From Arachis hypogaea (taxonomy: Eukaryota; Streptophyta; Magnoliopsida; Fabales; Fabaceae): a DNA stretch of 64,000 nucleotides. The stretch covers positions 78,190,445 to 78,254,444 of the forward strand of contig NC_092051.1 of the NCBI RefSeq assembly GCF_003086295.3, written 5' to 3'. The translations under genes were made by a program, and so were the position numbers. Below, piece after piece: positions 5,993 to 61,367 of the stretch (its first letter is position 1; each line of letters starts with the position of its first letter). The notes beneath the pieces are model-generated. The model did not search any database. It saw nothing but the letters and a program-made list of their open reading frames with translations, and was not told where the DNA came from.

Positions 5993-6027
5993 TTGCTTGA
6001 GGGAAAACAAATCTCTAAGTTTGGTGT
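5993..6027 (+). other. Decayed hairpin plus AAGTTTGGTGT box before the E1 extra ORF
   Basis: TTGCTTGAGGGAAAACAA (5993-6010) is the same element as the perfect hairpin at 45506 in E2, but its right arm is mutated. The box AAGTTTGGTGT follows at 6017-6027, and the extra ORF starts at 6066. Confidence 0.6.
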
Positions 6028-8361: not shown

Positions 8362-8398
8362 TTGCTTGGGGACAAGCAAGAATTTAAGTTTGGTGTCG
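8362..8398 (+). other. Hairpin plus priming box at the E1 3' LTR
   Basis: TTGCTTG-GGGA-CAAGCAA (8362-8379), 6 nt, then AAGTTTGGTGT (8386-8396), directly before the LTR start at 8399. By position this is where plus-strand DNA synthesis is primed, yet the box is not a classical polypurine tract. Confidence 0.7.
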
Positions 8399-17305: not shown

Positions 17306-19112
17306 GGGACAGTAGCTGAATATTCTCCCCCCTTGAGGTCATTCCTCTTAACAAACTGTAAGAAGAGGAAGAAAGTGAAGAATAACATGTCAACAATAGG
17401 TAATATTTCTCTTCTTTCCTTTGTTTTCTTTCTTTGCTTTGTTTAAATTCAATAAATTGGCATATGGTTACATTCTAAGTTTGGTGTTACCCTGCAACAA
17501 TTGTTTTCAATCCCTTTGGATGATTGCATCAATTCTACATGGAAGTGTCACACTAAGATTCTAAGTTTGGTGTGCCACTTATTTTTTCTATGCAAGTCAT
17601 CCAGCAGCACCACTTGTCTGCTTAATCACAATGCCTCTGCAATTTTATCTTTCTTTTGGTTTAACATTTTAGTTTTCTCTTTGTTTTAGTCATTTCCTTG
17701 TTTTAATGCTTTCTTCTATTAACTGTTTTTTAATACATCACCAAGAGATCCTTACTCATGACAGATTCTTGGCTTGGTGATTGTATTTAACATACAACAG
17801 TTTCATTTAGTCCTAGTTCAAATAAAATGGACATATGATTGTATTCTAAGTTTGGTGTTGCTATGCAACAAAAATTTGCTTCCAATCTTTACTGGATACT
17901 TGCATCAATTTCAAGTGTAAGTGTCACACTAAGTTTGGTGTGCCACTTACTTTCTTTATGCAATGTATTGTGCTCACCTTCTTATGTTTGCAATCAAAAT
18001 ATCTCTGTCTCTTATGCCTTGATTGTTATCTTTAAATTTTGCTTACTTAGAACACATGTACTACTAACTTTTCATTATGTAAGACATTCATGATCCATCT
18101 TAGCCCCAGAGCCATTGTTCTAATTGTTGCTTGAGGATAAGCAAACATTCTGAGTTTGGCAAGGGAAAGAGGAAGAATAGAGGAAAAAGGACAACAATAA
18201 TGAAGATGAACTACAAGGTTGTAGAGTTCCTTTTCTTCTCATTTATTTCCAGCACTTAAATTGCATGATTGTCTTCATCTTCTCTGTTTACATGTGTGTA
18301 TGAATAAAGCATAGCTTGAATCTTGATTTGTAACATGTTGCTGTGGCATTATGACTACCAACTTGAGTTTTGTAAGTTCAAAAGCAATAAAGCATCATGA
18401 TCATAAACAAACAAGGAATTAAAGAAGAGTTTAGCATGTGCATACAAGTATTGGAAAGCTAGTATGATTAATTGTTGCTCAATTGCATTGGATTTTATTT
18501 AATTGAAATTTTCATCTAGGACATTTTATGAAATCTTTGGAAATCATGAAAACCTTGAAAAAGCAAATGCAAATTAAGGCAAGAAAAGAAAAAGGGAAAG
18601 AATGAGAAAGCTGAAGGCTCTATGTACCAATGATAATTCCATTGTTAAGTACTTATGGTGTTTATGTATCAAGCAAAAAGCTTGAAAACAAAACACTTAG
18701 AAGTCAAGGTTAGGCTCAAAGTGCAAAAGCACTCCCTCAAAGCTCAAGGCTTTGAGCATCAATGATTAGAGAATCAAGAAAAGAAACAAATGAGCTTAAT
18801 GAAGTCCTCTAATTAAGTGCTTGTGGTGCTTATGTATCAAGTGGTAATACTTGAAAACAAAGCATTTAGAGTCATAGCTTTGTTATCAACTCATGGGGCA
18901 AAGCACCTAAAAGGAGAAGCTAATAAGAAAATCAAAAGCCTGTTTCAAGGAAGAAATATAAGAAAAAGATTTCATAAATTGAGCTAGATAGAAACATCAA
19001 TCATTTACATTTCTTTTGTGATCGTAGCATGCTTAGAAAACTAGCTTAACATGAACATTGAGTTGCTATTCTTCTTACCTTGGATTGTCAATCTTAATTG
19101 CATGATCTTTTC
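17306..19112 (+). other. 3' untranslated region of E5
   Basis: No coding potential. Two direct repeats of about 130 bp (17461-17596 and 17831-17963) each contain two AAGTTTGGTGT boxes. A decayed priming-type hairpin (TTGCTTGAGGATAAGCAA) is at 18127-18144. Two related blocks (about 18640-18715 and 18810-18880) carry hairpins TCAAGC-AAAAA-GCTTGA (18669-18685) and TCAAGT-GGTAAT-ACTTGA (18837-18854), also found in E1-E3. Confidence 0.75.
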
Positions 19113-19148
19113 TTGCTTGGGGACAAGCAAGGTTTAAGTTTGGTGTTG
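19113..19148 (+). other. Hairpin plus priming box at the E5 3' LTR
   Basis: TTGCTTG-GGGA-CAAGCAA (19113-19130), 5 nt, then AAGTTTGGTGT (19136-19146), two bases before the LTR. Same arrangement as in E1 and E2 although the LTR itself is unrelated in most of its length. Confidence 0.75.
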
Positions 19149-22165: not shown

Positions 22166-22202
22166 AATCTCCCTACACTTAAATCAAACATGTCCTCATG
22201 CT
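22166..22202 (-). other. Hairpin plus polypurine tract at the E4 3' LTR
   Basis: Read on the minus strand: AGCATG-AGGA-CATGTT (22187-22202), 6 nt, then a purine-rich tract TAAGTGTAGGGAGATT directly before the LTR start. Its outermost pairs are weaker than in E6. Confidence 0.7.
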
Positions 22203-23715: not shown

Positions 23716-23753
23716 ACCTCCCCACACTTAGAAATTTGCACCGTCCTCGGTGC
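23716..23753 (-). other. Internal hairpin plus polypurine tract, E4
   Basis: Minus strand: GCACCG-AGGA-CGGTGC (23738-23753), 7 nt, then TAAGTGTGGGGAGGT (23716-23730). It is a second copy of the cassette at the LTR, with an unrelated stem but the same AGGA loop and the same tract. It also spells the end of a vestigial reading frame (...TEDGANF stop), matching the C-terminus of the E6 extra ORF (...TEDGAKP stop). Confidence 0.72.
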
Positions 23754-25136
23754 ATGCAAAGAAGAGCAAGGTGGACGGGTTGCTACAATTGATGAGCTCC
23801 TTCAAAAGGTTGTGCGGGTGAACTTGTTTGTTGCCCCATTTGAAGTTTTTCCATCCCTTTCCTTCTTGGGGGCCAACCTAAACGAAAAGAGAAAGAAAGG
23901 AAATTAAGCCTACAACAAAGATATCAAAGCAATAAAACATAGGCAGGGGCGAATTCCAAATAAGAGTAAGGTTCTCACTACATGGTAGCTACAACATGTG
24001 AGTAATAAAACAATATAAGCTAAGGCATATTATCTAACACTTGATGCAAGAGTAAAGTCAAAGCATAGGCAAATGACATGAAGAGCATGTTGCATCAAGC
24101 TTAATCAATAATTGACACAAACAAGATTAATGATACGCATGAGAGCATTTGGTCCCATCCTAACTCAATGATGATGAGGTATAAAAACAAGGGGTCATGA
24201 GTTAGGAAGGACTAAAGCACTAATCTTGTGTGTAGAGAAAATATCACAATTAATGTCAAACAAGTCACAAAGCACCAAGATTAACCAAGAAATTCTCAAC
24301 AATTGAATATAAGAATCCAACACCATTATTAAAACAACGAACTTAGAAAAGAAAACATGAACAAGCTATAAAAACAAAATTAAAATGCAATGAATGATAA
24401 TATGCAAATGCAACATATAAAAGAAGATGAAAATAAGAAAAATAAAGAGTGAAAATTTTGAAAAGAAAGTAAGAAAGGAAGAAGAAGAAGAAAGAAAGAG
24501 GAAGAAACTAGAAAAAAAGAAGAGAAGAAGGGAAAAAGAAAACAGGGTAGAACAGGGGAAAAATAGGGCACGGAGGGTGATGCGTACGCGCCACGCACGC
24601 GTGCGCGTGGGTGGGCAGGCGAGACAGGCGACGCGGACGCGCATAGCACGCATACGCGTGCATGTGAAGTTGGCGACAGACGCGGACGCGTCATGTACGC
24701 TTGCGCGTGGGTCGCGAACACGGAGTAGGCACAACTTTGGCATAACTCTCTGGTTTTTGTAGCAGGAGTGCGATATGCACCACCGTCGCGCGCGCGCATA
24801 GTGCGCTGGTGCGTGGATGCCCTTTTTTTTTAAGAAGCATAAAAATAGAATTTAACACTCTCCTAACCTATAAACATTCTAAAGCAACCACAAATTAAAT
24901 TTAACAACAAATCTTTTTAGTTTTTGAAAAATTTTCAAACATACTAAAAACAAAACTTATACAACAAACAAAATGCAATCTAACAACAACTATTCTAATC
25001 AAAGCATGAATGCAACAAACAACCTATCAATAAAAGCAAAATGCATAAGAGTATAGAAAATAACAAAAACTACCTACAATGGTAACTCAAATCATTTATT
25101 AACCAAATCTAAAATAGAGTGGAAAGAGTTTACCAT
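23754..25136 (-). other. E4 spacer, vestige of the extra ORF and GC-palindrome cluster
   Basis: No complete gene. The first bases on the 23754 side encode the last few codons of a lost extra ORF. Positions 24573-24815 hold a dense run of CGCGTGCGCGTGG- and GCGGACGCG-type words, the family-2 palindromic motif. Purine-rich sequence at 24420-24550 gives long spurious ORFs on both strands. 24830-25130 is AT-rich with nothing recognised. Confidence 0.65.
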
Positions 25137-28654: not shown

Positions 28655-28692
28655 GAACACGAAACTTAAATTGTTGCTTGGTCCCAAGCAAC
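28655..28692 (-). other. Hairpin plus decayed priming box at the E3 3' LTR
   Basis: Minus strand: GTTGCTTG-GGAC-CAAGCAAC (28673-28692), then AAGTTTCGTGT, one base off the family-1 box, directly before the LTR start. Confidence 0.65.
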
Positions 28693-30967: not shown

Positions 30968-31004
30968 ACACCAAACTTAAAACGTTTGCTCGTCCTCGAG
31001 CAAA
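30968..31004 (-). other. Internal hairpin plus box before the E3 extra ORF
   Basis: Minus strand TTTGCTCG-AGGA-CGAGCAAA (30985-31004, perfect 8-bp stem), 6 nt, then AAGTTTGGTGT (30968-30978), 40 nt before the ORF start. Compared with E2 the stem differs by a compensating change (CTTG/CAAG to CTCG/CGAG). Confidence 0.75.
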
Positions 31005-36034: not shown

Positions 36035-36794
36035 TGGTGTGGGAAATCGTGATTCACACTTTTCACAACTCCGCACAACTAACCAGCAAGTGCACTGGGT
36101 CGTCCAAGTAATAAACCTTACCTGAGTAAGGCTCGATCCCACGGAGATTGTCGGCTTGAAGCAAGCTATGGTCATCTTGTAAATTCCAGTCAGGCGGATC
36201 CAAATGGTTATGAGGTTTTGATAATTAAAATATAAATAAAACATAAAATAAAATAAAGTTACTTATGTAATTCATTGGTGGGAATTTCAGATAAGCGTCT
36301 GGAGATGCTTTGTTGCTTCTGAACCTCTGCTTTCCTACTGCCTTCTTCCTGTGATACGTGCTCCCTTCCATGGCAAGCTGTAAGATCCTCTCAGTGAAAA
36401 TGGTCCTCTACAATTTCTGCACGGCTAATCAACTGTCGGATTTCTCTTCTCGGATGAAAAATACCAGGCACAGCTACCGCATGGCTAATCATCTGTCGGT
36501 TCCCGCTAGCGTCGAAATAGAATCCATTGATCCTTTTGCACACTATCACTGCGCCCAACATTCGCAGGTTTAAAGCTCGTCACAGTCATCCCTTCCCGGA
36601 TTCTACTCAGAATACCACAGACAAGGTTTAGACTTTCCAGATCCCAGGAATGCTGCCAATGATTCTAGCCTATACCACAAAGATACTAATCTCACGGACT
36701 CGGTTTGTGTATTAGATATCCAAGAGATACACACTCAAGCTGTTGCCCAATGACTACGTTGAGCTTAGATAGAAAGGAAGTGGTTGTCAGGCAC
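36035..36794 (-). repeat. E3 5' LTR, first part (proximal to the primer site)
   Basis: Matches 19748-20550 in the E3 3' LTR closely. It is cut at the E2 insertion; the last 5 bases ggcac are the target duplication. Confidence 0.93.
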
Positions 36795-38355
36795 TGATGA
36801 GCGGATATTTTATACGCTTTTTGGGGATAATTTCATATAGTTTAGAGTATGTTTTAGTTAGTTTTTAGTCTATTTCTAGTAGTTTTTAGGAAAAATTCAT
36901 ATTTCTGGACTTTACTATGAGTTGTGTGTTTTTCTGTAATTTCAGGTATTTTTCTGGCTGAAATTGAAGGAGCTGAGCAAAAATCTGATTCATGCTGAAA
37001 AAGGACTGCTAATGCTGTTGGATTCTGACTTCCCTGCACTCAAATTGGATTTTCTGGAGCTACAGAACTCGAAATGGCATGCTTCCAATTGCATTGGAAA
37101 GTAGACATCCAGGGCTTTCCAGCAATATATAATAGTCCATACTTTGCACAATGATAGATGACGTAAACTGGCGTTCAACGCCAGTCCTCTGCCCAATTCT
37201 GGCGTCCAGCGCCAGAAAAGGATCAAAAACTGGAGTTGAACGCCCAAACTGGCACAAAAACTGGCGTTCAACTCCACAAATGGCCTCTGCACGTGAATTG
37301 CTTAAAGTCTCAGCCCCAGCACACACCAAGTGGGCCCTAGCACACCAAGTGGGCCCCAGAAGTGGATCTCTGCATCATCCATCATAGTCCACTCATATTT
37401 TGTAACCCTAGGCTACTGGTTTAGTATTTAAACAACTTTTAGAGACTTATTTTGTATCTCATGACATTTCAGATCTAAACTTTGTATTCTCTGACGGCAT
37501 GAGTCTCTAAACCCCATTGTTGGGGGTGAGGAGCTCTGCTGTGTCTCGATGAATTAATGCAAGTATTTCTGTTTTCTATTCAAACACGCTTGTTCCTATC
37601 TAAGATGTTCATTCGCGCTTAACTGTGATGAAGGTGATGATCAGTGACATTCATCACCTTCCTCAACCCATGAACGTGTGCCTGACAACCACCTCCGTTC
37701 TATATCCGATTGAATGAGTATCTCTGAGATCTCTTAATCAGAATCTCCGTGGTATAAGCTAGAACTGATGGCAGCATTCATGAGAATCCGGAAAGTCTAA
37801 ACCTTGTCTGTGGTATTCCGAGTAGGATTCAAGGATTGAATGACTGTGACGAGCTTCAAACTCCTGAAGGAGGGGCGTTAGTGACAGACGCAAAAGGATA
37901 GTAAATCCTATTCCAACCGGATCGAGAACCAACCGGTGATTAGCCATGCTGTGACAGAGCGCGTGAGCGTAGTTTTCACTGGAAGGATGGAAGGTAGCCA
38001 TTGACAACGGTGATCCACCAACACACAGCTTGCCATAGGAGGACGTGCGTGCGTGAATCAGAAGACAGAGGAAAGCAGAGATTCAGAAGACAAAGCATCT
38101 CCAAAACTCCAACATATTCTCCATTACTGCATAACAAGTAACCTTTAATTTATGCTCTCTCAGTCATTCACAATTCAACTGATAAACATAATTGACTTCC
38201 TGACTAAGATTTACAAGATAACCATAGATTGCTTCAAACCAACAATCTCCGTGGGATTCGACCCTTACTCACGTAAGGTATTACTTGGACGACCCAGTGC
38301 ACTTGCTGGTTAGTGGTACGCGTTGTGAAAAGTGTGATTCACAATTCGTGCACCA
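36795..38355 (+). repeat. 5' LTR of E2 (1,561 bp)
   Basis: TGATGAGCGGATATTTTA ... GTGCACCA. U3 carries GGCGTTCAACGCC-type words at 37165-37280. The probable TATA position reads AGTATTTAAACAAC (about 37423) rather than the TATAAAAA of E1 and E3. Confidence 0.96.
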
Positions 38356-38379: not shown

Positions 38380-39401
38380 TTGTTCGTGTTTGAACAACTG
38401 ACGGATTATTCTGTTGCTTAGATTAGGAAAAATCTTTCTTTTTTTTTGGTTTAGAGTCTTTCATTATTTATCCCTTGTTAAAATACTTTAAACTTATAGC
38501 TCAGTTATTTAGAACGTGGTGTTTATGTTCATGATAATTGGCTATCATATTTTTTTAAAAACCTTTTTCAAAAATAATTTTTCTATTAAATCCTGTGCCA
38601 AACTTTAAGTTTGGTGTTTTCAAAAATAATCTTTCTTAAAATTTTTGAAGGTCCCATAACTCATTTGGCTAGAGCGTTAATCTGTGTTCTTGGTAATTGG
38701 GTTAGAATCTTTTATACTCTTTTTGAAACCTTCTTTTTCATAAATAATATTTTCTCTATTAAATTGTGTGCCAAACTTTAAGTTTGGTGTTTTCTTGTTG
38801 AATCCCCCTTGGTTTTCAAAAATTTTGGTGGTTTTCTAAAAAAAAAATTTTAAGTTTGGTGTTCTTTCTTCATGTTCTTGTGTTCTTGTGAGTCTTCAAA
38901 GTGTTCTTGAGTTTTCCTTGTGTCTTGATCTTAAAATTTTTAAGTTTGGTGTTCCTTGGTGTTTTCCCTCCAAATTTTTCGAAAACAAGGAGCATTAGAT
39001 CTAAAAATTTTAAATCTTGTACTATCTTATTGTTTTTCTCTCTCCTCACTAAATTCAAAAATATCTTTTCAAAATATCTCTTCTAACTTCCTAACTTCTT
39101 ATATTTTCAAAATTTGTTTCAACTAACTAACTAACTTTTTGTTTGTTTCTTAACTTTTTCAAAACTACCCAACTAACTCTCCCTCTCTCTAATTTTCGAA
39201 AATATCTTCCCTCTTTTTCAAAAATTTCTTTTTTTTTAACTAATTAATTTCTTTTTTTTTATAAACGAAAAAAAAAATATTTTTTTTTACTTCAAAAATT
39301 CAAATTCTTTTTAGTTATTTTATTTTATTTAAGTATTTACTTCTTATAAAATAAAATAAATAAAAAGGTAAATCAGTCCAAGTTATATCCATAGATCCAT
39401 C
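38380..39401 (+). other. 5' leader of E2 with four AAGTTTGGTGT boxes
   Basis: Noncoding, T-rich. AAGTTTGGTGT occurs at 38607, 38780, 38851 and 38942. Two of these sit in a perfect inverted repeat CCAAACTT-T-AAGTTTGG (38598-38614 and 38771-38787). The end before the gag ATG is A/T homopolymer-rich. Confidence 0.75.
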
Positions 39402-45505: not shown

Positions 45506-45541
45506 TTTGCTTGAGGACAAGCAAACCTCTAAGTTTGGTGT
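45506..45541 (+). other. Internal hairpin plus box before the E2 extra ORF
   Basis: TTTGCTTG-AGGA-CAAGCAAA (45506-45525, perfect 8-bp stem), 5 nt, AAGTTTGGTGT (45531-45541), 26 nt before the ORF start. A long polypyrimidine tract precedes it, so a splice acceptor for a subgenomic mRNA is also conceivable. Confidence 0.78.
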
Positions 45542-45567
45542 GTTTATCCGAGATCACTACTAAGATT

Positions 45568-46689
45568 ATGGCTCTCAAAGGGAAACAACACACTCCAAGA
45601 GGCAAGAAAGAGAGCGTTCCAAAACCACTTTGGAATCAAGGGAAGTTCTTATCTAAAGAACATTCAGACCATTATCTTAAAGTAATGGGTCTGAGATCAG
45701 TGATCCCGGAAGTTAGATTCGATCTGAAAGAAGACGAATATCCGGAGATCCAGGAGCAAATTCGAATCAGGAACTGGGAAGTCCTAGCTAATCCTGAAAC
45801 GAAAGTAGGAAGGAACATGGTCCAGGAGTTCTATGCTAATATGTGGCAGACTGACAAGCAAAGACTATCTGGAACTGCCTGCTACGAATTTCGGACCATG
45901 GTCAGGGGAAAAATTGTTCATACCACCCCTGATAAGATCAGAGAGATACTAAAGCTACCTCAGCTAAAGGATGATCCAGACTCCTTCAACAGAAGGATGA
46001 TGAGAGCAGACATTGGCCTGGATAAGATTCTAGAGGACATCTGTATCCCTGGAGCCAGGTGGACCACCAACACAAAGGGCGTCCCAAATCAACTCAAGAG
46101 GGAGGATCTCAAACCAGTTGCCAGAGGATGGCTGGACTTCATTGGGCGTTCTCTGTTGCCCACCAGCAACCGTTCTGAAGTCACAGTTAAAAGAGCAGTG
46201 ATGATTCATTGCATCATGATGGGAAAGGAAATGGAGGTTCATCAGCTGATTTCAACAGAGCTCTATAAGATTGCTAACAAAAATTCAAGAGAGGCCAGGT
46301 TGGCTTATCCAAGCGTGATTTCTCTGCTCTGCAAGGACGCTGGAGTCAAGATGGGAATAACTGAATATATCCTAATTGAAAAGTCAATCACCAAAGCATC
46401 AATGGAGAGACAACAAGCACAGGAGGAACATATCAAGAAGAGAGCACAGGAATTCCTCCCAGAGATTCCTCAAGCGGAATATTGGGAATATCTTGAGACG
46501 TCTGTCACCAAGATACAGGAAGCTATGGAGCAAATAATAAAACAACAGAAGGAACACAGTCAAATGCTGACCCATATGCTTAAAGAACAAGAGGAGCAGG
46601 GACGTGACTTAAGGGAACTGAAGCGCCAAAAATCTTCTGTGATACCAAGCCTCCCAAGGATCAGAGGAACCCCCATACCCCCAGAATAA
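45568..46689 (+). CDS. Extra 3' ORF of E2, intact (373 aa, putative plant transposon protein type)
   Basis: Sits between integrase and the 3' LTR, the env position of Athila-lineage elements. The start MALKGKQHTPRGKKESVPK is chosen because E1 (MAPKGKQ) and E3 (MAPKAEE) begin at the same place; the frame is open further upstream only by chance. The N-terminus is basic. Residues about 30-230 hold the conserved part (NMVQEFYANMWQTDKQ, DKIREILKLPQ, GARWTTNTKG, LKPVARGWLDFIGRSLLP, NRSEVTVKRAVMIHCIM). Residues about 280-360 look like a coiled coil (ETSVTKIQEAMEQIIKQQKE, QEEQGRDLRELKRQK). It has no signal peptide, membrane helix or catalytic motif I recognise, so it is not an envelope protein by sequence. 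Nuclear or RNA-binding roles are only guesses. It is the only undamaged long ORF of the element. Confidence 0.88.
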   Translation: MALKGKQHTPRGKKESVPKPLWNQGKFLSKEHSDHYLKVMGLRSVIPEVRFDLKEDEYPEIQEQIRIRNWEVLANPETKVGRNMVQEFYANMWQTDKQRLSGTACYEFRTMVRGKIVHTTPDKIREILKLPQLKDDPDSFNRRMMRADIGLDKILEDICIPGARWTTNTKGVPNQLKREDLKPVARGWLDFIGRSLLPTSNRSEVTVKRAVMIHCIMMGKEMEVHQLISTELYKIANKNSREARLAYPSVISLLCKDAGVKMGITEYILIEKSITKASMERQQAQEEHIKKRAQEFLPEIPQAEYWEYLETSVTKIQEAMEQIIKQQKEHSQMLTHMLKEQEEQGRDLRELKRQKSSVIPSLPRIRGTPIPPE

Positions 46690-47727
46690 AGGTTGTTAAT
46701 TTCCAATTTCTGCCTTAACTCTGTGACAGTGTCCTTATAAAAGTACCTTAGAAGTCATATAGTAGTAATTAGTATCTATTTTGATTTTATCTCCAATTAA
46801 GCTATAGTTTATTTTTCTCATCATCATTAAACATGAATAAAATAGTAGATCTTTTGAATAAGAAGCAATAAAATTTCGAGTTTAAATAAAACAAATTCTA
46901 ATTGGTTAAATGTGGTGGCAATGCTTTCTGTCTTCTGAATGAATGCTTGAACAGTGCATATGTCTTTTGAATTTGTTGTTTAAGACTGTTAAATATGTTG
47001 GCTCTTGAAAGAATAATGAACATGAGACATGTTATTGATAATCTGAAAAATCATAAAAATGATTCTTGAAGCAAGAAAAAGCAGCAAAGAATAAAGCTTG
47101 CAGAAAAAAAAAAAAAAGCAAGCAGAAAAAGCCAATAACCCTTAAAACCAAAAGGCAAGGGCAATTAAAAAGGATCCCAAGGCTTTGAGCATCAGTGGAT
47201 AGGAGGGCCTAAAGGACTGAAATCCTGGTCTAAGCGGCTAAACCAAGCTGTCCCTAACCATGTGCTTGTGGCGTGCAGGTGTCAAGTGAAAACTTGAGAC
47301 TGAGCGGTTAAAGTCAAGGTCCAAAGCAAAAAGAAGAGTGTGCTTAAGAACTCTGGACACCTCTAATTGGGGACTTTAGCAAAGCTGAGTCACAATCTGA
47401 AAAGGTTCACCCAGTTATGTGTCTGTGGCATTTATGTATCCGGTAGTAATACTGGAAAACAAAGTGCTTAGGGCCACGGCCAAGACTCATAAAGAAGCTG
47501 TGTTCAAGAATCATCACACTGAACTAAGAGAATCAATAACACTATCTGAATTCTGAGTTCCTATAGATGCCAATCACTCTGAGCTTCAATGGATAAAGTG
47601 AGATGCCAAAACTGTTCAGAAGCAAAAAGCTACTAGTCCCGCTCATCTAATTAGAATCTGAGCTTCAATCAAAAACTCTGAGATATTATTGCTTCTCAAC
47701 CTATTAGTCTTCTATTTTATTTGTCTA
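46690..47727 (+). other. 3' untranslated region of E2
   Basis: Noncoding. 46910-47727 is collinear with E1 and, in reverse, with E3. Hairpins TCAAGT-GAAA-ACTTGA (47282-47297, GAAA tetraloop) and CCGGT-AGTAAT-ACTGG (47440-47455) are conserved with stem changes. Confidence 0.78.
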
Positions 47728-47765
47728 GTTGCTTGAGGACAAGCAACAGTTTAAGTTTGGTGTTG
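47728..47765 (+). other. Hairpin plus priming box at the E2 3' LTR
   Basis: GTTGCTTG-AGGA-CAAGCAAC (47728-47747), 5 nt, AAGTTTGGTGT (47753-47763), then the LTR at 47766. The outer stem pair differs from the internal copy (G-C against T-A), again compensated. Confidence 0.78.
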
Positions 47766-49318
47766 TGATGAGCGGATATTTTATACGCTTTTTGGGGATA
47801 ATTTCATATAGTTTAGAGTATGTTTTAGTTAGTTTTTAGTCTATTTCTAGTAGTTTTTAGGAAAAATTCATATTTCTGGACTTTACTATGAGTTGTGTGT
47901 TTTTCTGTAATTTCAGGTATTTTTCTGGCTGAAATTGAAGGAGCTGAGCAAAAATCTGATTCAGGCTGAAAAAGGACTGCTAATGCTGTTGGATTCTGAC
48001 TTCCCTGCACTCAAATTGGATTTTATGGAGCTACAGAACTCGAAATGGCATGCTTTTAATTGCATTGGAAAGTAGACATCCAGGGCTTTCCAGCAATATA
48101 TAATAGTCCATACTTTGCACAAGGATAGATGACGTAAACTGGCGTTCAACGCCAGTCCTCTGCCCAATTCTGGCGTCCAGCGCCAGAAAAGGATAAAAAA
48201 CTGGAGTTGAACGCCCAAACTGGCACAAAAACTTGCGTTCAACTCCACAAATGGCATTTGCACGTGAATTGCTTAAAGTCTCAGCCCCAGCACACACCAA
48301 GTGGGCCCCAGCACACCAAGTGGGCCCCAGAAGTGGATCTCTGCATCATCCATCATAGTCCACTCATATTTTGTAACCCTAGGCTACTGGTTTAGTATTT
48401 AAACAACTTTTAGAGACTTATTTTGTATCTCATGACATTTCAGATCTAAACTTTGTATTCTCTGACGGCATGACTCTCTAAACCCCATTGTTGGGGGTGA
48501 GGAGCTCTGCTGTGTCTCGATGAATTAATGCAAGTATTTCTGTTTTCTATTCAAACACACTTGTTCCTATCTAAGATGTTCATTCGCGCTTAACTGTGAT
48601 GAAGGTGATGATCAGTGACATTCATCACCTTCCTCAACCCATGAACGTGTGCCTGACAACCACCTCCGTTCTATATCCGATTGAATGAGTATCTCTGAGA
48701 TCTCTTAATCAGAATCTCCGTGGTATAAGATAGAACTGATGGTAGCATTCATGAGAATCCGGAAAGTCTAAACCTTGTCTGTGGTATTCCGAGTAGGATT
48801 CAAGGATTGAATGACTGTGATGAGCTTCAAACTCCTGAAGGAGGGGCGTTAGTGACAGACGCAAAAGGATAGTAAATCCTATTCCAACCGGATCGAGAAC
48901 CAACCGGTGATTAGCCGTGCTGTGACAGAGCGCGTGAGCGTAGTTTTCACTGGAAGGTAGCCATTGACAACGGTGATCCACCAACACACAGCTTGCCATA
49001 GGAGGACATGCGTGCGTGAATCAGAAGACAGAGGAAAGCAGAGATTCAGAAGACAAAGCATCTCCAAAACTCCAACATATTCTCCATTACTGCATAACAA
49101 GTAACCTTTAATTTATGCTCTCTCAGTCATTCACAATTCAACTAATAAACATAATTGACTTCCTGACTAAGATTTACAAGATAACCATAGATTGCTTCAA
49201 ACCAACAATCTCCGTGGGATTCGACCCTTACTCACGTAAGGTATTACTTGGACGACCCAGTGCACTTGCTGGTTAGTGGTACGCGTTGTGAAAAGTGTGA
49301 TTCACAATTCGTGCACCA
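47766..49318 (+). repeat. 3' LTR of E2 (1,553 bp)
   Basis: Same as 36795-38355 except about 18 substitutions and an 8-bp deletion of one ATGGAAGG unit near 48958. Palindromic words at 48140-48250. Confidence 0.96.
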
Positions 49319-50236
49319 GGCACGCGTTCATAGAATTGAGAATAATGATGAGTGTCACGGATCATATCATTCTCCAGATTTAAGTACGAGTGAGTATCTT
49401 AGAATAGAATCAAGCATGATTGAATAGAAACACAGTAGTAATTGCATTAATTCATGAAGAACAGTAGAGCTCCACACCTTAATCTATGGGGTGTAGAAAC
49501 TCCACCGTAGAAAATACATAAGTGAAAATAGTCTAGGCATGGCCATGTGGCCAGCCTCTAAGTCCAAGTCTCATATCTAAAAATGATCAAAAGATGGTAA
49601 AGTCTATCTCTAAAAGTAGTTTTTATACTAAACTAGTAACCTAGGTTTACAGAAAATGAATAACTAAGTGCAGATAGTGCAGAAATCCACTTCAAGGGCC
49701 CACTTGGTATGTGCTTGGGCTGAGCATTGAGCTTTACACGTGCATAGGCTGTTCTTGGAGTTAAATGCCAGCTTGGGTGCCAGTTTGGGCGTTTAACTCC
49801 AATTCTGGTGCCAGTTTGGGCGTTTTATGCCAGGAAGTTTTAGGCTGGCTTTGAGCGCTAGTTTGGGCAATCAAATCTCGGGCAAAGCATGGACTATTAT
49901 ATATTGCTGGAAAGGCCAGGATGTCTACCTTCCAACGCAATTTAGAAAGCGGTAATTGGGCCTCTGTAGCTCAAGAAAATTCACTTCGAGTGCAGGAGGG
50001 TCAGAATCTAACAGCATCTGCAGTCCTTTTTCAACCTCTGAATCAGATTTTTGCTCAGGTCCCTCAATTTCAGCCAAGAAAATACCTGAAATTATAGAAA
50101 AATACACAAACTCACAGTAAAGTCCAGAAATGTGATTTTTGAATAAAAATTAATAAAAATATAATAAAAAGTAACTAAAACATCTAAAAACTATGTAAAA
50201 ACAATGCCAAAAAGGGTATAAATTATCTGCTCATCA
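49319..50236 (-). repeat. E3 5' LTR, second part (U3 side)
   Basis: After the second copy of the ggcac duplication (49319-49323) the E3 LTR resumes with GCGTTCATAGAATTGAG and runs to its start at 50236. It gives the unoccupied version of the E4 target (CTTAGAATAGAATCAAGCA near 49396). TATAAAAA box on the minus strand at 49620-49627; palindromic words 49760-49860. Confidence 0.93.
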
Positions 50237-52956: not shown

Positions 52957-52993
52957 ACCTCCCCACACTTAAACATTAGCATGTCCTCATGCT
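52957..52993 (-). other. Hairpin plus polypurine tract at the E6 3' LTR
   Basis: Minus strand AGCATG-AGGA-CATGCT (52978-52993, perfect 6-bp stem), 6 nt, TAAGTGTGGGGAGGT (52957-52971), then the LTR start TGATAAACC. The tract is a proper polypurine tract. Confidence 0.8.
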
Positions 52994-54394: not shown

Positions 54395-54432
54395 ACCTCC
54401 CCATACTTAAGGCTTTGCACCGTCCTCGGTGC
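54395..54432 (-). other. Internal hairpin plus polypurine tract overlapping the stop of the E6 extra ORF
   Basis: Minus strand GCACCG-AGGA-CGGTGC (54417-54432, perfect 6-bp stem), 7 nt, TAAGTATGGGGAGGT (54395-54409). The hairpin encodes GTEDGA and the TAA of the tract is the ORF stop. Confidence 0.78.
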
Positions 54433-55282
54433 CATCTGTCAGGAACAGGGGTGGGCTGGTAGCAGTATCTCCACAGTCGGGACCATCATGGCTCCCTGTG
54501 TTGGTAAAAGAAGTGGAGTCCGGGGTGTCTGAGTCCTTGAAGTGTCCCTTGAGTAGCTCCTTGAGGTGTTTGAATTGGCGCTCGTTACGGCGCTCTCTTA
54601 ACTTCGCTTTCTGTTCTTGCCGATCCAACCTTTTGATTATCTGCTGGAGCAGTTCATCTATTGTAGGTGCTTGTGGTGCTGAAGAAGGAATATCTTCAAC
54701 CGGTACAGTAGGAAGGCTTGTAGTGGCTGCTGAAAGTCGGAGGTATTTCCCATTAGGGACATACTGATCATCCCGTGGAAGCATGGCTTTGGTGTCTCCA
54801 TCTCTGTAGAAAACTCCGGCTGCTGAGACAAGATCTGAGACCAAGGCGGGAAAAGGTAAGTTGCCTGCAATTTGTACGTGTCCCATGGCATTCTGGATAT
54901 GTCTTGGTAGATTCAGAGGCTGGTTTGTAAGGATGCACCATAGTTGAACGGCCATGTCTGCAGTGAAGGAGGACTTGTGAGTGCTCAGAAAGACGTAATG
55001 GGACATGATCTGTGCCCATACGCGAGCCTCTAAGTTGAGTGCTGAAGCTGATATTCCCTTAGGGCGGGTACGATGGTATCCGTAGATCCAACGGCTGCCA
55101 GGTAGTGTGATAACTCTGAGAACAGCTTCCCAGTCAAATTGGTACATCTGGCGCTTGAGTGCGGCTTCTTGAAAGGCATCCAATCCTTCTGGAATAGGGG
55201 GAAGACTCAAAGCTTGTTGAATAGCCTCTTCTGTAATGGGGACTTGCTTCTGACGGACAAAGACAGACCGCAAGGTAGGCAG

Positions 55283-55860
55283 CACTACAAGAAAACACGT
55301 CTTTTGCCACGCTTTTAAAGCGTAGCGAAAAGCTGAAAAAAACGTGGCGATAGCTTTTCGCCACGCTTTTTGAGCTATCGCCACGCTTTCGAAAGGGTCG
55401 CCTATCAAAGGGTGGCGGTTGCTCTATCGCCACGCTTTTTGCAGTCTATTGCCACGCTTTTTGTTTGCCACGCTTTTTTACAAACGGCCACTTGTAAAAG
55501 CGTGGCTATAGGTGGGAAATACGGCAACGCTTTTAAAGCGTGGCGATAGGCAGAGATATGGCCACGCTGTAAAAGCGTGGCGATAGGGTAGATCTGGCCA
55601 CGCTTTTCAAGCGTGACAGTAGACCAGATATGGCCACGCTGTAAAAGCGTGGCGATAGGGTAGATCTGGCCACGCTTTTTAAGCGTGACAGTAGACCAAA
55701 TATGGCCACGCTTTTAAAGCGTGGCGAAAGCGTGGTAGAGGAGATTTGGCCACGCTTGAAAAACGTGGCGAAAAAGCTTAGATACAGCCACGCTTTCTAA
55801 GCGTGGCAATAGACAGAGATATGGCCATATGGCCACGTTTTTAAAGCGTGGCGAAAAAGA
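55283..55860. repeat. CACTA left subterminal palindrome array
   Basis: About 20 half-sites (GCCACGCTTTT) or full GCCACGCTTTTAAAGCGTGGC words in 580 bp, in both orientations. In En/Spm such subterminal repeats bind the element-encoded TNPA-type protein (family knowledge). The first part of the minus-strand ORF entering at 55408 is transposon-derived. Confidence 0.92.
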
Positions 55861-60800: not shown

Positions 60801-60944
60801 TCTTCGATACAGGCGAGTAGGGTTAGTGGCTTCGAAGGGGAAAGAGAGATTAGGGTTGGGGACCGGGTTGGGGGCCGGGTTTGGGTCGGGTTGGGAGCCG
60901 GGTTTGGGAGCCGGGTTTGGGTCAACCGGTTTGGCCCATCTCGC

Positions 60945-61367
60945 CACGCTTTTAAAACGTTATTCTTGCTCTCTACGGCCACGCTTTTGAAGCGTGGAAA
61001 AAAAGAAACTTTTGGCCACGCTTTTAAAGCGTGGCAAAAGTGTACCAGCATATAGCCACGTTTTGTAAGCGTGGCCATAATGAAACCCTGTGGCCACGCT
61101 TTTAAAACGTCCTTGTTTCTATCTACGGCCACGCTTTTGAAGCGTGGCAGAAAAAAAACGTAGCCTTTTCTCTAATCAATTGCCACCCTCACAAAAGCGT
61201 GGCCGTTGATCCTTTTCGCCACGCTTTTGAAGCGTGGCAAAAAAAAATGTGGCCAAATCTCTAATCTATCGCCACCCTCATAAAAGCGTGGCCATAGACC
61301 ACTTTTGGCCACGCTTTTGAAGCGTGGCAAGAAAAAAGCGTGGCCATAGGCCTTTTTTCTTGTAGTG
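60945..61367. repeat. CACTA right subterminal palindrome array
   Basis: About 14 GCCACGCTTTT half-sites or full palindromes up to the terminus, matching the left array. Confidence 0.92.

Follow-up and report, generated by a model that had tools for sequence, protein, structure and literature searches.

A hairpin joined to a putative polypurine-tract box at two sites of Athila/Tat-type retrotransposons in peanut: a candidate module for plus-strand priming

The choice of the exact plus-strand primer end by reverse transcriptase (RT) is an old open question, and the usual view is that a plus-strand primer is recognised through the sequence and geometry of its tract and through nothing else. A 64,000-nt stretch of the peanut genome (Arachis hypogaea, NC_092051.1, positions 78,190,445 to 78,254,444; hereafter the window) raises the question anew. 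Nested Ty3/gypsy retrotransposons lie in this window, and those of the E1-E6 type, which their domain set and an extra open reading frame (ORF) would place in the Athila/Tat lineage, carry a short hairpin in front of the box that takes the position of the polypurine tract (PPT). We propose, with moderate confidence, that hairpin and box form a module for plus-strand priming in Athila/Tat-type Ty3/gypsy elements.

The cassettes listed in the initial annotation of the window are all present at the positions it gave. On the plus strand, E2 has before its 3′ long terminal repeat (LTR) an 8-bp hairpin, GTTGCTTG-AGGA-CAAGCAAC (47728-47747), followed by the box AAGTTTGGTGT (47753-47763), which occupies the PPT position and ends two bases before the LTR start (TGATGAG, 47766). 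A second 8-bp hairpin, TTTGCTTG-AGGA-CAAGCAAA (45506-45525), lies internally with its own copy of AAGTTTGGTGT (45531-45541). E1, also on the plus strand, carries a 7-bp hairpin with loop GGGA before the 3′ LTR (8362-8379; box 8386-8396), while its internal cassette (5993-6012) has a decayed stem with loop AGGG and two unpaired positions in the 3′ arm, beside an intact box (6017-6027). The plus-strand hairpin of E5 before the 3′ LTR reads CTTGCTTG-GGGA-CAAGCAAG (19112-19131; box 19136-19146), and the internal E5 cassette (18126-18145) has a G.T closing pair and an altered box. Decay had been ascribed to this last cassette alone, which holds for E5 but passes over E1.

The cassettes of E3, E4 and E6 lie on the minus strand. 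E3 carries TTTGCTCG-AGGA-CGAGCAAA internally (30985-31004; box 30978-30968) and a hairpin with loop GGAC before the 3′ LTR (28673-28692; box AAGTTTCGTGT at 28667-28657). The internal hairpin of E4 is TGCACCG-AGGA-CGGTGCA (23737-23754; box AAGTGTGGGGAGGT from 23729), and that of E6 is GCACCG-AGGA-CGGTGC (54417-54432; box AAGTATGGGGAGGT from 54408). The stem AGCATG/CATGCT listed in the initial annotation stands before the 3′ LTR of E6 (AGCATG-AGGA-CATGCT, 52978-52993; box AAGTGTGGGGAGGT from 52970); before the 3′ LTR of E4, AGCATG faces CATGTT across the AGGA loop with one G.U, leaving a perfect stem of only 4 bp (22187-22202; box AAGTGTAGGGAGAT from 22180). Perfect stems of 6-8 bp are thus found in E1 (8362), both sites of E2, both of E3, E5 (19112), E4 (23754) and both of E6. 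Within the window, 4-8 nt separate the stem from AAGT, a wider range than the constant 5-7 nt first described.

Perfect pairing over at least 6 bp around a 4-nt loop occurs at 9 of the 22 box sites in the window, compared with 426 of 40,000 random window positions (1.1%), a comparison in which the copies are relatives and the sites hence not independent. The other boxes comprise 11 with no hairpin, none of which entered the initial account, and two whose hairpin is decayed or partial.

Is the arrangement general? Sites were sampled without reference to the hairpin in the 2.56-Gb peanut-type assembly that contains the window, by patterns consisting of the box and the LTR start. The family-A junction, TAAGTTTGGTGTNNTGATGA, occurs 53,118 times genome-wide and the family-B junction, TTAAGTGTGGGGAGNTTGATAAA, 14,877 times, each against 0 for the reversed-pattern control. 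A hairpin precedes the 3′ LTR at 27 of 30 family-A sites (the first 30 listed) and at 18 of 20 family-B sites (picked from 100 listed), both samples being drawn from contig C1. Loci found with patterns that hold part of the hairpin (L004-L011, L042-L051) were left out of all counts.

The internal site was sought by position. For 20 of the 30 family-A junctions, 800-nt windows about 2.2 kb upstream contained a cassette in 14 cases, with complete 7-bp pairing in 11; five others held hairpin-less boxes only and one was empty. In the five box-only elements an internal cassette lies 1.4-1.6 kb upstream of the LTR, nearer than the window searched. Three of these are exact matches, one (L062) has loop AGGG, and one (L065) has loop AGGG and a T.G pair. 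A recognisable internal cassette, in some cases decayed, is therefore present in 19 of 20 family-A elements; these five were counted for presence only, and the pairing analysis below uses the 14 in-window cassettes as its internal family-A set. In family B, 18 of 20 elements have a recognisable internal cassette, again some decayed, in 800-nt windows taken upstream of the junctions, and 10 of these 18 stems are fully Watson-Crick over 7 bp (13 of 18 counting G.U). The two-site duplication of hairpin and box is established in families A and B. Family C, found with TTTAAGTGTGGGGG (1,483 matches genome-wide against 16 for the control), has the same layout: among 20 places, 14 of them chosen for lying in close pairs and all assigned to classes after the sequence had been seen (nine before the LTR, four internal, six mid boxes, one other), a perfect stem of at least 6 bp occurs at seven of nine sites before the LTR and at one of four internal sites.

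The stems of these sites differ in sequence, which allows pairing to be followed as letters change. Across 95 sampled cassettes, 665 stem cells comprise 623 Watson-Crick pairs (94%), 10 G.U, 9 A.C and 23 others; these counts ignore kinship, and most within-family changes resemble post-insertion decay. Seven 7-bp stem types were hand-picked by frequency. Their 5′ arms are TTGCTTG (family A before the LTR and E2-type internal), TTGCTCG (E3-type internal), TAGCATG (families B and C before the LTR), TGCACCG, AGCATCG and GGCACCG (family B internal) and TGCACGG (family C internal). All seven pair fully with their own 3′ arm, 49 cells of 49, with AGCATCG represented by two fully paired copies and GGCACCG and TGCACGG by one each; the inner 6 bp of GGCACCG also occur in E6 of the window. 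At six of the seven stem pairs two or three Watson-Crick types are seen, the paired double changes including transversions (C-G to G-C, T-A to A-T), while the loop is mostly constant RGGA. Since the loop was located by its similarity to GAGGAC/GGGGAC, pair 1 is partly conditioned. Shuffling the 3′ letters within columns, a test that is not tree-aware, leaves a mean of 26.7 and a maximum of 44 of 49 cells paired, and none of 100,000 shuffles reaches 49; register slips leave 4-7 of 35-42 cells paired. These results support a hairpin that is probably kept by selection, its pairing held while its letters change. The initial suggestion of a selected RNA structure is borne out as to pairing, which is kept across families with different stems and in hairpin-blind samples, whereas action as RNA is the part that we infer.

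Could inheritance and biased mutation produce the same picture? An old palindrome may have been copied along, with CpG decay mimicking compensation. The copies are indeed relatives, the stems were chosen by frequency with rare types seen once or twice, and the best-counted pair differs by two CpG transitions: at pair 2 of the family-A internal stem, exact 20-mers genome-wide number 11,505 with C-G, 10,355 with T-A (a count that includes some sites before the LTR, e.g. L006) and 533 with the C.A mismatch. Other pairs differ by transversions, however, and cells as a whole, chosen or not, are 94% Watson-Crick; we regard this explanation as very improbable. A DNA-level element, such as a cruciform, a protein site or a signal for integrase end recognition, has a similarly slender chance. 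Inverted repeats are recognisable as DNA, and Sireviruses have one around the PPT and LTR (according to the available part of PMC2829016), but stem letters that vary while pairing is kept would be unusual for a DNA site, and the internal copy has no adjoining LTR end. G.U and A.C cells are equally rare (10 vs 9), so the strand is not distinguishable from them.

A role of the hairpin in priming is favoured by its position. Wherever the stem pairs perfectly over 6 bp or longer (52 sites), the distance from stem base to LTR start is 17-21 nt (17-19 nt at 27 family-A sites, 19-21 nt at 18 family-B sites, 20 nt at seven family-C sites), and the box begins 13-14 nt before the LTR. The box, moreover, is shared between the two sites. 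The family-A internal box is AAGTTTGGTGTG in 13 of 14 sites; in family B, in windows fetched by position, it equals the 3′ box AAGTGTGGGGAGGT exactly in 14 of 18 and with one mismatch in four, although the stems of the two sites differ. Copying of one cassette over the other would move the stem too, so that a shared requirement on the box, for example the primer preference of one RT, is the simpler account. Family-C sites were all found through one box pattern, and the shared box there carries no weight. In families B and C the boxes, AAGTGTGGGGAGGT and AAGTGTGGGGGAAT, are purine-rich. The plus-strand priming role first suggested for the cassette is favoured by position and by the match of the internal box to the family's 3′ box (families A and B); priming itself is the step that these positions would imply.

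The proposed module would consist, in order, of a short hairpin in the genomic RNA, a spacer of 4-8 nt and the PPT equivalent. One module would lie against the 3′ LTR and the second, about 1.0-2.4 kb upstream, would be an internal site comparable to a central PPT. The box would act as a primer resistant to ribonuclease H (RNase H), and the structure, acting in RNA, would serve as a brake. RT copying the RNA would meet the stem just after the box and stall; halted 4-8 nt before the stem, it would have its RNase H centre near the junction of box and LTR, which would define the primer 3′ end. A second plus strand would begin at the internal module and a discontinuity would remain, as happens with PPT2 of Ty1 and the central PPT of human immunodeficiency virus (HIV). 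HIV RT has a 17-18 nt ruler. A pure ruler of 17-18 nt was set aside here because Ty3-type enzymes cut 10-14 nt behind, and the proposal is limited to a stand-off of 4-8 nt. In the available parts of the sources, the RNA cuts made by the RTs of Ty3 and cauliflower mosaic virus trail the polymerase site by 10-14 nt (PMC11363490), and about 13 bp separate the polymerase and RNase H sites of Ty3 (PMC5371799). Where extra PPTs lie in coding regions, the plus strands begun there lose out to the terminal PPT, an outcome considered unlikely in Sireviruses, whose PPTs lie close together (both from the portion of PMC2829016 at hand); the putative internal priming site need not be essential. The fuller version of this proposal, in which plus strands start at two sites, the hairpin is both brake and ruler for RT and sets the RNase H cut at the PPT 3′ end at a fixed distance, marks true boxes among hairpin-less copies and enables a poorly purine-rich primer, is tentative, and we would not expect all of it to hold.

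Several observations weigh against the priming module or against the structure on which it depends. The spacing figures leave slack and are compatible with several models. In yeast Ty3 the PPT itself lies in a paired RNA region, and a separate hairpin beside it is not described in the available part of the same source (PMC11381356). The family-A box, AAGTTTGGTGT(TG), has 7 purines in 13 positions; it is not purine-rich, which is unusual for a PPT. Hairpin-less boxes occur in leaders, arrays and mid-regions, so that either the box does more than priming or the hairpin selects primers. Shuffles of whole 3′ arms reach 49 of 49 paired cells in 15 of 100,000 trials, approximately the rate at which the original order is restored, and pair 2 alone is weak evidence because of the CpG transitions between its forms. 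Single-sequence folds of nine 54-nt cassette stretches give modest z-scores (-0.8 to -2.8), three of the 11 hairpin-less boxes fold into their own structures at z -2.4 to -2.9, and the box is not more open inside cassettes (unpaired fraction 0.25-0.95) than outside them (0.23-0.78). A scan of the window against Rfam at the gathering threshold returned no match.

The hairpin-less boxes form several groups. Four copies of AAGTTTGGTGT lie in the E2 leader between the 5′ LTR and gag (38607-38952, plus strand), and two of them form a perfect palindrome of the CCAAACTTTAAGTTTGG type. Another E2-type leader (L163) has three hairpin-less boxes, one reading TTTGGTGC; the second leader window fetched (L162) fell within LTR sequence. 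Elements of the E3 type have a tandem array around CAAACTCTAAGTTTGGTGTT with a unit of about 33 nt, upstream of the internal cassette (31986, minus strand; also L105, L106, L111, L114 and L118), in most units of which the box can pair with the stretch just 5′ of it. Extra boxes upstream of the internal cassette are likewise seen in several E5-type elements (17477-17940, plus strand; L004-L011), some within short inverted repeats. The family-C mid box is without a hairpin and has a common context in all six copies (L142, L144, L146, L148, L160, L161), four of which have a second box 0.73-0.85 kb away. Among boxes away from the LTR junction, 8 of 26 form their own palindrome of at least 6 bp. 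The box TTTAAGTTTGGGGG shows no enrichment genome-wide, with 37 matches against 143 for the reversed control.

A cis-acting RNA signal with a function other than priming, such as packaging, dimerisation, export or 3′ processing, its RGGA loop being bound by Gag or a host protein, would also preserve a hairpin, and its nearness to the PPT would follow from both belonging at the 3′ end. A loop bound by protein typically looks like this one, with a near-constant purine sequence set on stems that vary, and the presence of two copies per element fits as well. Such a signal does not predict that hairpin and box stay 4-8 nt apart at both sites, nor that the internal box equals the element's own 3′ box in families A and B, and we judge it rather unlikely.

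The initial annotation also offered a role in expression of the extra ORF and placed the internal cassette directly before it. This placement is correct for E1, E2 and E3. In E2 the ORF (45568-46689, plus strand; 373 aa) matches the Pfam family PF20167, Transposase_32 (E 6.9e-42). In E6, by contrast, the ORF (54407-55408, minus strand, with a TTG start; also PF20167, Transposase_32) ends in ...DGTEDGAKP, reading through the internal cassette, so that the hairpin lies within its last codons and the cassette encodes its last residues. The cassette could be a splice acceptor, a ribosome-entry site or a promoter element for the ORF, which begins shortly after it in 12 of 20 family-A windows, namely those with similarity to the ORF (8 of 20 have none); a pyrimidine-rich stretch also lies 5′ of the E2 hairpin. 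The same cassette nevertheless stands before the 3′ LTR, it falls at the ORF end in E6 and in 13 of 20 protein relatives, which end in DGTEDGAKP or close variants, and 16 of 20 family-B windows (800 nt in all, about 400 nt on either side of the site) lack similarity to the ORF next to the cassette. In two of the other four family-B windows (L131, L135) the ORF runs to its end at the cassette site, L135 having no box. Because its position relative to the ORF varies, the cassette does not look like a control element belonging to the ORF in these families, and control of the extra ORF is on the whole an improbable explanation, disfavoured by its place before the ORF in family A and at the 3′ end in E6 and relatives.

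Relatives of the extra ORF extend the picture. Among the matches listed (120 of 600 in one listing), the named ones come from Arachis and Stylosanthes; the protein set numbers 182, two of them from the window itself. Four Stylosanthes proteins (P0022, P0035, P0144, P0146) read through CLRTS or CFRTS and then a box-like stretch, with codons inferred, which is probably the cassette's translation in that frame; the CFRTS of P0022 would then imply an altered closing pair. In P0022, P0035 and P0146 the cassette-like stretch lies a short way ahead of the ORF start. A match in P0082 was set aside, as it lies inside an ordinary ORF start and has no box-like stretch. A search for plant relatives among viral contigs, by exact pattern and by protein, found none, and the three pattern matches there (L001-L003) have by eye no hairpin before the box and look like chance.

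The host elements themselves are well delimited in the case of E2, which is nearly complete: its LTRs (36795-38355 and 47766-49318, plus strand) are 98.3% identical and flanked by the target duplication GGCAC (36790-36794 and 49319-49323), and Pfam matches cover gag, RT, RNase H and integrase domains, with the extra ORF between pol and the LTR. The lineage name Athila/Tat was adopted because of TGGCGCC.. after the E2 5′ LTR, which we take to be a tRNA match, the extra ORF, and matches to primers for FIDEL, an Arachis element. Six of the eight published FIDEL primers (from the available part of PMC3496627) find a target in E1, E2 or E3 at 0-3 mismatches, and the other two have none anywhere in the window. 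FIDEL transcripts and their induction by stress are reported in that source. In the 1-1.4 kb upstream of the final cassette (54400-53000, minus strand; 46690-47727, plus strand) there is no ORF of at least 200 aa, and E4 and E6 are alignable in parts of it. Repeated short GCCACGCTTT/AAAGCGTGGC units adjoin the E6 ORF at 55486-55859 (minus strand) and are similar to 60938-61153.

Taken with their positions, the hairpins suggest a functional component of the apparatus that copies the element. A hairpin held at a near-set distance from the tract and kept at most sampled sites would add a structural signal for primer choice, and would, if the proposal is true, explain how a non-purine tract can serve as primer. 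It would further make plant 3′ LTR junctions easier to annotate and lend a defined anatomy to the extra PPT of env-like plant elements. That the hairpin is kept at most of the sites drawn from tens of thousands of junctions would make the question of primer choice testable.

The initial annotation knew of no description of the structure. A duplicated PPT is already in print, as the available part of PMC2829016 records, but no description of a hairpin before the PPT of these elements was found in searches of the open-access literature aimed at an extra PPT or a hairpin beside it. The word hairpin is absent from the main text of PMC11963269, PMC6317226, PMC1142308, PMC2410132 and PMC7264820, and both hairpin and stem-loop from that of PMC3605345, which treats Bongo3. 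The FIDEL primers match elements of the window, yet the structure is not described in the available part of PMC3496627. This suggests that the extra PPT is known and that the attached hairpin is apparently undescribed in the open-access literature searched.

Known systems share some features with the peanut cassettes. The central PPT of HIV lies in pol. Like it, and like PPT2 of Ty1, the internal cassette would provide a second plus-strand start inside the genome (for the two known sites, the available text of PMC2829016); those internal PPTs lie in coding regions, whereas the putative peanut site is 1-2.4 kb before the LTR and after pol. Bongo3, a beet chromovirus, has in PPTa a duplicated PPT at the end of pol, which differs in overlapping the gag-pol stop codon and in having been found in one family (from the part of PMC3605345 at hand). 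Athila4 and Calypso, env-like Ty3/gypsy elements of the same broad lineage, have one extra PPT, which lies after pol and ahead of the 3′ LTR (Wright and Voytas 2002, cited by PMC2829016), but the available part of that account does not mention a hairpin on each PPT copy. Sireviruses have repeated PPTs upstream of the 3′ LTR and an inverted repeat tied to the terminal PPT; they are Ty1/copia elements, however, whose repeat arms stand on either side of the PPT/LTR junction and leave the PPT in the loop, and the upstream PPTs are without the repeat (PMC2829016, in the portion available). In the peanut cassettes, by contrast, both sites have the hairpin, which is compact and stands entirely ahead of the box.

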